Positions 28,850 to 35,682 of a stretch of DNA of 64,000 nucleotides are shown piece by piece. The translations under genes and the position numbers were made by a program. Position 1 is the first letter of the stretch. Each line of letters starts with the position of its first letter. This DNA is from Bacteroides neonati (GTDB lineage: Bacteria; Bacteroidota; Bacteroidia; Bacteroidales; Bacteroidaceae): positions 186,001 to 250,000 of the forward strand of contig NZ_HG726019.1 of the NCBI RefSeq assembly GCF_000499785.1. The letters are read 5' to 3'. The notes under the pieces were generated by a model. The model saw only the letters and a list, made by a program, of their open reading frames with translations. It ran no database searches and was not told the origin of the DNA.

Positions 28850-30436
28850 CCTTAAATCCGCAGTCATATTATTTTCAGAGAATCCAAACACTTGAGGATG
28901 AATAACATCCTCAAGGTTTGGTTATGTCACAAGATTCACCTAAATTAGTGCTACCAAACAAACCATAAAGGTACTTGTGCATATGACAACAAAAATAGCC
29001 ATAAAATCAGATAATATCACTCCTTTTGGGGGTATATTTTACGCAATGGATGAATTTTCTCGTTTAGGACTGAATTCCGTGATCGATAAATCTTTAGGAT
29101 TACGTTCTTCCTACGCCGGTTACCAATATAGCGAAATTATTTCGAGCCTATTTTGGATCTACTATTGCGGCGGTGACCACATCGAAGATATCGGCAAACA
29201 CCTTGGCAAACATCTTGAATTACGCCCGGATACTGAAATCCCCAGTCCGGATACTTTATTGAGAGGCATAAAAGAACTCGCAGAATTGGATATCCACTAT
29301 ACTTCCCAAAAAGGAGCAAGCTATGCTTTCAATAAGGCGGAACAGCTTAATAGTTTGATGCTCGATATGCTCCTTCAAACAGAACAACTCAAGCCAAACA
29401 CGCTTTATAACTTGGACTTCGACCACCAGTTTATTCCCACAGAAAAGTATGACACTCAGTATTCTTACAAGAAAAAACGTGGTTATTTCCCCGGCACGGC
29501 AACTATTGGTGGTAACATTGTTGGTGTGGAAAATCGGGCCGCAAACGCAAATGTCCGTTTTCGTCAAGCGGATACGCTCCAACGGACTTTTCGTCGTTTG
29601 GCCGATAGGGGAATATTCATAGACCGTTGCCGGATGGACTGTGGTTCTTATTCGGAAGAGATTATCCGTATGACACATGGCTACTGCAACAAGTTCTACA
29701 TACGAGCCGGCAAATGTCAGTCTCTGTATGAAGAAATGACGAAAATCACAGATTGGAAAAAAGAAGAAATCAACTTCGAGAATTATGAAGTGACCTCCAT
29801 ACCTTTTACTTCCTTTTTGCAAGAAGAAAACTACCGACTTGTTATTCAAAGGCAAAAGCGTAAGGACAACCAATTGGACCTATTTGATGGTGAATACACC
29901 TATCGGTGCATCTTAACCAATGACCATGAAAGTTCTGAAAAAGACATTGTACTCTTCTACAATGCTCGTGGAGCCTGTGAAAGAACATTCGACATGATGA
30001 ATAACGATTTCGGGTGGAGTCATCTTCCCTGTTCATTCCTCAAAGAGAATACAGTATTCCTGCTACTTACAGCCATGGCTAAAAACTTTTATGCTTACCT
30101 TATTGAGAAGGTTGCAGCCGTGTTTGAAGATATTGAACCGGTAAGCCGAGTCAAACGATTTATCTTTCGATTCATTACAGTTCCTGCGAAATGGGTAAAG
30201 ACAGGCAGACAATGGGTACTCAATATTTATTCCGACAAACCATACAAGTTGCTTTGGAGTCCGTAAAAACAACTTTTCGTGGGATTACTTATGCCTTCAG
30301 CTAACTGGGGAAAGGGGAAGCTATGCCCTATAACCTGAAATCAAGGAGAAAAGCAGGGGGAAAAGCTACGAGTAGGAACTATTAGGTGAATTAAATCGCT
30401 ATTTGAATCAGTTATAAATTAGCTGCGGATTTGAGG
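28850..30436 (+). mobile_element. IS1380-type insertion sequence, copy 3 (inside second susD)
   Basis: 1587 bp in the opposite orientation to copies 1 and 2 (CCTTAAATCCGCAG at 28850, CTGCGGATTTGAGG ending 30436), with a perfect 5-bp duplication TATTT (28845-28849 and 30437-30441). Transposase is on the plus strand, opposite to the interrupted susC-susD operon. Because copy 3 is inverted relative to copies 1 and 2, recombination between them would invert the 12-26 kb in between; matching duplications show this has not happened in this genome. Confidence 0.95.
28983..30266 (+). CDS. IS1380-family transposase (copy 3)
   Basis: 427-aa DDE transposase from ATG 28983, preceded by an alternative GTG at 28977; identical in translation to the other two copies. 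The upstream hairpin lies at 28884-28921. Transcription from the host susC promoter crosses this gene in the antisense direction, which could limit its expression. Confidence 0.93.
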   Translation: MTTKIAIKSDNITPFGGIFYAMDEFSRLGLNSVIDKSLGLRSSYAGYQYSEIISSLFWIYYCGGDHIEDIGKHLGKHLELRPDTEIPSPDTLLRGIKELAELDIHYTSQKGASYAFNKAEQLNSLMLDMLLQTEQLKPNTLYNLDFDHQFIPTEKYDTQYSYKKKRGYFPGTATIGGNIVGVENRAANANVRFRQADTLQRTFRRLADRGIFIDRCRMDCGSYSEEIIRMTHGYCNKFYIRAGKCQSLYEEMTKITDWKKEEINFENYEVTSIPFTSFLQEENYRLVIQRQKRKDNQLDLFDGEYTYRCILTNDHESSEKDIVLFYNARGACERTFDMMNNDFGWSHLPCSFLKENTVFLLLTAMAKNFYAYLIEKVAAVFEDIEPVSRVKRFIFRFITVPAKWVKTGRQWVLNIYSDKPYKLLWSP

Positions 30437-34142: not shown

Positions 34143-34621
34143 CTCAACTCATTAAATCTGTGCAGGTTCTTTTTGAACTTGAGAATTATTTGTTGTTGAT
34201 TTTGCACATAGATTATTTTTTTGAATCATATATTTTATATTCTTCATGTTTATAATTCTGTATTCTTTATCGTTTTTTCTATTTTTTTATAGATCTTACC
34301 CCTGCAAATGTATTAATATCTTTTTAAATTTCAATAAAATAAGTCTTTTTTTTATTAAATCAGATTTTATTGTCATCAGCTTTTTATTATTCACATAAAG
34401 TTAATTAACTTGTTTAAATCTTAATAAAGTTAGCACTATAACGGATGGCCTCTTTAATAAGCCTAGGAGGCTCGTCTTTGCAAAAAGTTCGTTTGCTCTT
34501 TCTTTTCTTTAAGGGGTTATGATTAGCTTACATTCGGCACAAGGCTTCATAAAGTAAACTTGAGTTAGCGGTGTGTAAATCATCGGGGGGTAGTGGGTAG
34601 AGAGTGCCGGGATAATTGTAT
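34143..34621. other. AT-rich intergenic region upstream of the second susC
   Basis: About 480 bp holding the susC promoter at 34305-34334. The rest shows no ORF of coding quality, no RNA gene and no clear operator. The mRNA leader between the promoter and ATG 33914 would be about 390 nt, long enough for leader-based control or for the N-terminal extension to be translated. Confidence 0.4.
34305..34334 (-). promoter_or_regulatory. Bacteroides-type promoter for the second susC-susD pair
   Basis: On the minus strand TTG (34334-34332) and TACATTTG (34312-34305) with 19-bp spacing, matching the -33/-7 consensus. Transcription would start near 34298. Confidence 0.65.
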
Positions 34622-34709
34622 TCTCACCTAGGTGGGTAAACCTCCCCACCCGGGTGAGAACATCTCCCCACCTCGGTGAGAATGTCTCCCCACCTGGGTG
34701 GGGAAGCTA
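34622..34709. repeat. four tandem 22-bp palindromic units
   Basis: Units at 34622-34643, 34644-34665, 34666-34687 and 34688-34709 with an exact 22-bp period. Each has a GC-rich self-complementary core (CTCACCTAGGTGGG, CCCACCCGGGTGAG, CCCACCTCGGTGAG, CCCACCTGGGTGGG) followed by a 6-8-bp AT-richer linker. The GC content contrasts sharply with the surroundings. The array ends 16 bp before the antiporter stop codon, so it lies at the 3' end of that transcript. Core positions differ between units but keep pairing. Could be a multi-hairpin terminator, a protein-binding array or a tandem-duplicated hairpin. Confidence 0.8.
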
Positions 34710-34725
34710 TTTTTTCAGGGTCTTT

Positions 34726-35682
34726 TTAACTAATATAGATAAGTATTGCTGTATAGGCTACGTAACTTAGCACAAGTATGCTTCCTTCTATGCGGGTAAT
34801 GGTACGTTTGGCAAAGAACAACCCGAATAACCAAAGCAGAATGCCGGCTGCAACAAGTGATAACAGATCAAAATTGGTGATCCCAGCCAAATAGAGTGGG
34901 GTAATAGAGGCACTGCATCCGAGCACGAAGAAGATGTTGAAGAGGTTGCTACCTATTACGTTGCCGATTGCTATTTCGGGGTTCTTCTTCAACGCAGCTA
35001 CAATGGAGGTTGCCAATTCCGGAAGTGAAGTTCCGCCGGCAACTAATGTGAGTCCGATGATCGATTCGCTGATGCCCATATTGCGGGCAATGTTGGTGGC
35101 TCCTTGAATAAACCATTCTCCGCCGAAGATAAGCCCGGCCAAACCACCGACAATATATAGCGTTGCTTTCCACGTAGGGAGTTGGCGGATCTCCTCCTCT
35201 TCGCCTGTTGGGGTATTGTTTGAGGCCATAGAAAACGTATAGCCCAAAAAGATAAGGAAGAAACAGAGCAGCAAAAGCCCGTCTGTAGTGCTTAGCACGT
35301 TGACTTTGCCCCCATTTAAGAATACATCGTTGGCACAGATCAGTAGCACAATGGATGATAAGATACAGAGTGGGATCTCTTTTCGGAGCGTATTACGCGT
35401 AATAACGATAGGTGCCACCAAGGCCGTACATCCAACAATCATCAGTGTGTTGAAAAGATTACTCCCGACAACGTTTCCAATGGCTATATCGGCACTCCCT
35501 TTTAAGGCAGAAGAGATGCTGACCGTGAGCTCGGGTGCCGAAGTACCGAAAGCTACGATGGTAAGTCCGATGACCATCGGTGAGATGCGAAACCGCATGG
35601 CTACCGAAGCAGCACCATCTGTTAAACCGTTTGCGCCTAGTAGGATGAGGATAAGTCCTCCGATAAGAAGTAAGATGTCCAT
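34726..35682 (-). CDS. calcium/sodium antiporter (CaCA family, YrbG-like)
   Basis: 318 aa, about ten membrane helices. Two inverted alpha repeats are clear: GTSAPELTVSISSALKGS with GNVVGSNLFNTLM in the first half, and GGTSLPELATSIVAALKK with GNVIGSNLFNIFF in the second, carrying the acidic and Asn residues that bind Ca2+ and Na+. The cytoplasmic loop between halves contains NNTPTGEEEEIRQLP. It exchanges cations across the inner membrane. Divergently transcribed from the MscS gene with a shared 116-bp promoter region. Confidence 0.95.
   Translation of the reverse strand: MDILLLIGGLILILLGANGLTDGAASVAMRFRISPMVIGLTIVAFGTSAPELTVSISSALKGSADIAIGNVVGSNLFNTLMIVGCTALVAPIVITRNTLRKEIPLCILSSIVLLICANDVFLNGGKVNVLSTTDGLLLLCFFLIFLGYTFSMASNNTPTGEEEEIRQLPTWKATLYIVGGLAGLIFGGEWFIQGATNIARNMGISESIIGLTLVAGGTSLPELATSIVAALKKNPEIAIGNVIGSNLFNIFFVLGCSASITPLYLAGITNFDLLSLVAAGILLWLFGLFFAKRTITRIEGSILVLSYVAYTAILIYIS

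Follow-up and report, generated by a model that had tools for sequence, protein, structure and literature searches.

The array and its surroundings

The window analysed here is a stretch of 64,000 nt of Bacteroides neonati DNA. At 34621-34704 it holds four 18-bp units with the cores CACCNNGGTG, placed at a spacing of exactly 22 bp (Table 1). The first two cores are separated by the 12-bp spacer GGTAAACCTCCC, which comprises the 4-bp link and the adjoining unit arms. Tandem Repeats Finder reports the array at 34625-34700 (period 22, score 89) as one of two arrays within the window. An earlier note, based on the sequence alone, had described four GC-rich, self-complementary units in AT-rich DNA with an exact 22-bp spacing. 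The spacing is confirmed both by the unit coordinates and by Tandem Repeats Finder, and so is the composition, i.e., the GC content of the array is 0.607 (61%) compared to 0.303 (30%) for the 519 flanking bases and 0.419 for the whole window. With regard to self-complementarity, the first two cores are perfect palindromes (centres TA and CG), while the centres of the last two (TC and TG) break the symmetry.

Table 1. Positions of the array components and of neighbouring features within the window
Feature	Position	Strand	Remark
Flank GATAATTGT	34611..34619	.	by-eye match to a weak A+T-rich motif
Palindromic unit 1	34621..34638	.	core CACCTAGGTG
Link (4 bp) between units 1 and 2	34639..34642	.	
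Palindromic unit 2	34643..34660	.	core CACCCGGGTG
Palindromic unit 3	34665..34682	.	core CACCTCGGTG, centre not self-complementary
Palindromic unit 4	34687..34704	.	core CACCTGGGTG, centre not self-complementary
Na/Ca exchanger (antiporter) gene	34726..35682	-	PF01699; neighbour, outside the element

The gene on the other side of the array encodes TonB-receptor plug and carboxypeptidase-regulatory domains and is presumably of SusC type. A 429-aa ORF at 28977-30266, about 4.4 kb from the array, resembles an IS transposase by eye.

The earlier note had also placed the array directly behind the antiporter stop. The distance of 21 bp between the array end and the end of the stop codon (34726) agrees with this, but the link to the gene is incidental, since 20 of the 21 other genomes with an antiporter orthologue score at most 19/24 when the 500 bp downstream are scanned for arrays of 22-bp spacing, while the remaining one (G445) shows a different candidate array. 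Among the 22 genomes the host (G000) alone has a CACC-type array downstream of the exchanger, while the G445 candidate is of another type (CTC-GTA-GAG, 21/24). This candidate (L397) lies some 259 bp beyond the stop of the exchanger gene and consists of four units, CTCTACGTC, CTCGTAGAG, CCCGTAGAG and CTCGTAGAG, at 22-bp spacing. No exchanger match was found in G166, a related Bacteroides MAG. A role as Rho-independent terminator of the antiporter is not supported, because the terminator-like call at the array is restricted to the + strand and the antiporter is encoded on the - strand.

Copies in the host genome and its nearest relative

A pattern of two units with up to two mismatches yields 21 forward and 20 reverse matches in the 5.02-Mb host genome, compared to none in either direction for the reversed control. 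The array of the window is thus not a product of chance. The matches correspond to nine arrays on the contigs C1, C2, C5, C9, C11 and C12, to which C2 adds two stray matches with two mismatches each. All nine arrays show four clear units; at a loose threshold (5/8 core matches), a fifth unit is counted in one of them (L146). The earlier note had proposed a genome-wide search for the same core and named a single occurrence, together with a lack of structure or termination in RNA data, as the result that would speak against it; nine arrays were found.

By the strict pattern, none of the 60 other relatives was matched. A scan of contigs matched at least 110 stretches, and of the 110 rescanned four hold arrays, all of them from one MAG, Bacteroides sp. 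Go_SlPrim_bin_32. The same array is carried by contig C31 of G166 and by JAGOOC010000005.1. Judged by one protein, the closest relative among the 149 searched genomes of the same genus is G166 (73%; next 62%). Six of its arrays of the host type were examined, each with four units.

Breadth across species and further palindrome families

A three-unit pattern with up to three mismatches matched 61 of the 399 genomes of the family, covering 15 of 30 genera, compared to 6/399 for its reversed control; the 61 genomes were inspected in part, and some of the matches are longer tandem runs. Two such runs, L153 and L172, consist of 13 and 7 similar 22-bp palindromic units and may be unrelated to the four-unit arrays. 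When 295 genomes drawn from the order were searched, the three-unit pattern matched six, three of which belong to other families (one with a single match). The highest number among the 399 genomes is seen for G328, i.e., 383 three-unit matches in 2.5 Mb (control 18); near-identical arrays 1.3 kb apart on its contig C24 might bracket something.

The spacer letters differ between most species compared. The spacing is kept: in 400 kb of G349, four consecutive CACN4GTG sites occur five times at spacing 22 and not once at each of the spacings 15-21 and 23-30. We also performed blind scans over all trinucleotide half-sites; a generic palindrome scan without half-sites is too insensitive. For 400 kb each, the best palindrome at spacing 22 forms 5 arrays in G349, 5 in G512, 7 in G276 and 4 in G021, compared to at most three arrays at the other spacings between 17 and 27. 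No clear further family was found in 400 kb of host contig C2 taken outside both known C2 arrays; here, at most two arrays per palindrome occur at the spacings 22, 23 and 24 alike.

Different palindromes are found at the same spacing. A TAGYGWCRCTA family is present in G512 and G021 and an AAAGC-N3-GCTTT family in G512, both at 22 bp. The seven arrays of G276 (L331-L350) have a 22-bp period, TATATA centres and GCTGCA arms in the loose scan; the strict consensus retains one run of four and one run of three units. CACC-type arrays reside in other parts of the G276 genome. Within the scanned 400 kb of G512 and G021 (L291-L310, L351-L370), at least two other families of four 22-bp units were observed, e.g., TAGTGACGCTA / TAGCGTCACTA, and the arrays at G512:771672 and G021:703923 look orthologous by eye.

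Two-unit seeds were also extended, which resulted, among the six of 25 motif/genome combinations listed, in runs of four in 17 of 21 cases, of three in three cases and of five in one; no run was obtained at spacings 20, 21, 23 or 24. With the loose threshold of 5/8, a fifth unit is counted in 6/8 arrays of G306, 2/7 of G349 and 1/2 of G432. Where listed, the extra positions of G306 and G349 score 5-6/8 compared to 6-8/8 for the four units, so that 'four' is to be read as four clear units. For G091 and G235, three units were counted in each of the nine arrays.

Apparent gain and loss at intergenic sites

The gap upstream of pepT (gene named by eye) was compared between genomes; its amidophosphoribosyltransferase-like neighbour is kept in 18 of 23 genomes. 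For 16 of the 18 genomes with the gene pair, the gap spans 107-188 bp and scores at most 19/24 in the 22-bp array scan. The host gap has 423 bp and contains a four-unit array (24/24). The gap of G166 measures 314 bp, and its four-unit array (23/24; cores CAATGCGTTG, CTCCGCATTG, CTCCATGGTG and CTCCGCAGTG) differs from that of the host. Given the short, array-free gaps on the one hand and the longer gaps with different arrays on the other, arrays seem to come and go at intergenic sites. All 18 gaps read (L371-L393) also share, with small changes, a hairpin followed by a T run, AAAAAGAGCCGTGAATT...AATTCACGGCTCTTTTT.

The pepT array of G166 lies inside a 155-bp stretch between perfect 11-bp inverted repeats, a finding obtained without a control run. 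For the nine host copies, no terminal inverted repeats above the shuffled background were found outside the arrays, beyond a weak A+T-rich flank motif. This motif, GATAATTGC / GCAATTATC, adjoins several other copies besides that of the window, as judged by eye; in this by-eye reading some flanks of G306, G276, G091 and G166 are shifted by one base. At a further site, the ResB locus, the ResB neighbour is kept only in G000 and G166 among 30 loci, which makes this locus uninformative with regard to empty sites.

The insertion-like pattern at pepT, the lineage-specific array positions and the 155-bp stretch of G166 are what would also be expected from inert MITE relics, i.e., from remnants of elements whose parent transposase recognised the palindromes, with neither a present host function nor a standing binder.

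Half-sites and geometry of orthologous arrays

Three pairs of host and G166 arrays (L142/L220, L143/L093, L147/L128) were judged orthologous because their neighbouring genes agree. Their CAC and GTG half-sites are changed at none of 72 positions, compared to 59/156 for the rest of the array (Fisher 4e-12). The latter changes are distributed over core positions 4 and 7 (8/24), the centre positions (9/24) and the spacers (42/108). The alignable flanks of these arrays differ at 16-48% of positions. Both the 22-bp spacing and the four units are kept without insertions or deletions in these three pairs as well as in four orthologous pairs of G349 and G306.

The closer pair G349/G306 shows the same trend without reaching significance (half-sites 2/96 vs 14/208 for the rest, p = 0.10). 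Here, the arrays changed at a similar rate (16/304) to the flanks (91/1556, a count that includes a one-base shift), which would again suit inert relics. The conserved half-sites at the three host/G166 sites and the indel-free geometry of all seven pairs argue against them, so that we regard relics as an unlikely explanation. Homogenisation between copies could mimic the conservation of half-sites.

Symmetry and folding

The earlier note had left two alternatives, namely that the units form repeated hairpins in RNA or that a dimeric protein binds the array. If hairpins of single units were important, joint changes of both arms would be expected. We compared the symmetry of 13 arrays from the host and G166 with shuffled versions. 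The pairing of the arms within units does not differ from that of shuffles (p = 0.30). The links between cores fall below the shuffles in symmetry (p = 0.998), since the individual spacers are asymmetric and may occur in either orientation. For the variable arm positions of eight genomes, the paired counts are mostly near or below independence, with a modest excess at pair 3 (24 vs 19.1 expected in G306, 20 vs 16.5 in G349). The centre dinucleotide (TA or CG) of host units is self-complementary in 31/37 cases compared to 15.6 expected. This excess suits a symmetric dimer that recognises double-stranded DNA, because adjacent centre bases cannot pair within a unit hairpin. The effect is weaker in G166 (16/24 vs 11.3 expected), and self-complementary centres are below expectation in G349 (5 vs 10.1), G276 (6 vs 9.1) and G091 (4 vs 8.0).

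An RNA element would act post-transcriptionally by stacked hairpins or by one long hairpin, e.g., as terminator, processing site, stabiliser of mRNA ends or regulator within 5' UTRs. Folding speaks in its favour: each of the seven folded arrays exceeds its shuffles in stability, with -60.4 kcal/mol and z = -4.6 for the - strand of the window array (z = -3.0 for its + strand) and z = -4.5 to -10.2 for six further arrays, folded for one strand each. One long hairpin is formed by four of the seven (L142, L143, L148, L269), i.e., by four of the six folded arrays from outside the window, while three prefer two hairpins (the - strand of the window array, L145 and L216), which fits the RNA explanation less well. 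Furthermore, complementarity is highest between the outermost arms (48/52, shuffle p = 0.03), which leaves room for a long hairpin of DNA or RNA that spans the entire array, and by eye several host copies sit shortly downstream of a promoter-like TAnnTTTG box just outside the array.

The arm pairs within units, on the other hand, show little or no covariation, and the symmetry of the arrays thus resembles that of a DNA site recognised by a protein more than that of an RNA hairpin. The gene context does not support an RNA role either. In G349 and G512, none of 13 arrays overlaps an ORF of at least 100 aa, and their flanking genes are co-directional in 7, convergent in 3 and divergent in 3 cases, compared to background gaps of 71/11/17 in G349 and 68/20/29 in G512 (same order); these 13 arrays thus show no clear preference for the 3' ends of genes. 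The pepT gap, moreover, has its own hairpin and T run beside the array. Within 34400-34900 of the window, the best Rfam match reaches 24.4 bits compared to a gathering score of 62, and all matches are sub-threshold and of unrelated families; five further stretches of 20 kb, four of them with arrays, revealed only two tRNAs above the gathering score. Given the unchanged half-sites (0/72) and the scarce covariation, the dimeric protein is the favoured one of the two alternatives of the earlier note; the RNA alternative is weakened, yet the stable folds of all seven arrays still count for it. Overall, we consider an RNA element unlikely.

To the right of the L148 array, a long inverted repeat, CTGCCCGTACCTTT...AAAGGTACGGGCAG, was observed between convergent genes, which is probably a bidirectional terminator.

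Comparison with known elements

With REP/BIME elements and their RAYT partners, the arrays share the dispersed, short intergenic palindromes in small groups, while in the available text on REP groups spacing and number vary and a GTAG or CGTC tag is present (PMC3733652, PMC6006769). The arrays keep 22 bp and usually four units and lack a consistent tag, and no gene for a Y1 transposase was detected in the host. In the 12 bp next to the array ends, with both strands considered, GTAG is found for one of the nine host arrays and CGTC for none. In G512 and G021, CGTC is part of the core of a different family.

A mobilisation as REP/BIME by a resident Y1 (RAYT/TnpA-REP) transposase could draw on the many short intergenic palindromes and on a Bacteroidetes Y1 subclass whose genes, in the accessible part of its description, are flanked by atypical structures (PMC6006769), but 21 of 28 array-positive genomes, including the host, gave no match to PF01797 (Y1), and the CACC-type array is absent from all eight loci around detected Y1 genes (best 17/24), so that this explanation is strongly disfavoured and a resident partner is rejected for the host genome. 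Repeat-like scores were observed near Y1 genes for L182 (22/24, spacing 22), L180 (23/24, spacing 20) and L185 (24/24, spacing 21), which are possibly REP-type structures.

PINSR of Prevotella intermedia/nigrescens is likewise lineage-restricted, intergenic and non-coding without terminal inverted repeats, and shares about three quarters of its positions between two strains, according to the text at hand (PMC4755523). The same text gives one 188-bp consensus in 177-184 copies, and an architecture of four times 22 bp does not appear in its description (PMC4755523). With the BrickBuilt MITE of Porphyromonas gingivalis (PMC4596501), the arrays share the intergenic occurrence in a limited set of Bacteroidales hosts and the tandem units of short period. 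In the parts of the source available, 19 BrickBuilt copies are given for one strain, with 1 to 22.8 units of 23 nt per element that are not described as palindromic, and with a leader, a tail and IS5-like terminal repeats (PMC4596501). The host arrays differ from this build, since all nine have four clear palindromic units at 22 bp. Finally, the FopS sRNAs of Bacteroides thetaiotaomicron are also multicopy, non-coding and from Bacteroidaceae; as far as their available description goes, they are sRNAs of about 65-70 nt with a canonical promoter and a shared seed, and no 22-bp palindromic array is described (PMC11697453).

In summary, the arrays resemble REP/BIME, MITE, BrickBuilt and PINSR in habit, and membership is shown for none of them. 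A literature search, with subscription journals and preprints largely or wholly outside its reach, returned no paper that describes such rows of four palindromes with a 22-bp spacing for Bacteroides. The arrays are thus apparently a previously undescribed, scattered non-coding element of Bacteroides-type bacteria.

Phased dimer sites as the preferred reading

The simplest joint account of the constant geometry, the held half-sites, the drifting spacers, the species-specific palindromes and the gaps in which arrays come and go is a mobile (or formerly mobile) element with phased dimer sites. That is, we read the array as a dispersed, REP/MITE-like insertion element, intergenic and non-coding, which is built of phased putative dimer-binding sites. 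We assign this reading a probability of slightly above one half (about 0.52). Since the spacing and usually the number of units are kept between species while the letters differ, the array points to a series of docking sites that a putative DNA-binding protein would use.

Within this preferred reading, four dyad-symmetric sites, placed in phase at every second helical turn (22 bp), would form the core of the element, and four dimers, i.e., eight half-sites, could line up on the same face of the DNA over about 85 bp. The sites would be bound by a dimeric protein that would co-evolve with them and thereby give rise to species-specific letters. Candidates for such a binder are the transposase or recombinase that may spread the element as well as a nucleoid or regulatory protein.

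A more far-reaching version is possible but doubtful. Here, the arrays would represent a nucleoprotein module of fixed geometry and variable sequence that is found throughout the Bacteroidaceae and also in other families of the Bacteroidales. Each genome would carry several sequence families, each with its own fast-evolving DNA-binding protein, possibly a domesticated transposase, and the host might use them, e.g., for chromosome organisation or local gene control.

If the phased-site reading is true, Bacteroides-type bacteria carry several families of non-coding elements for which the geometry, usually four sites at 22 bp, is kept while the letters change. Constant geometry along with changing letters would then be the mark of a rapidly co-evolving protein-DNA system, and the array would provide a defined bait for identifying the binding protein. 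Furthermore, intergenic repeats that are now left unannotated would be explained.
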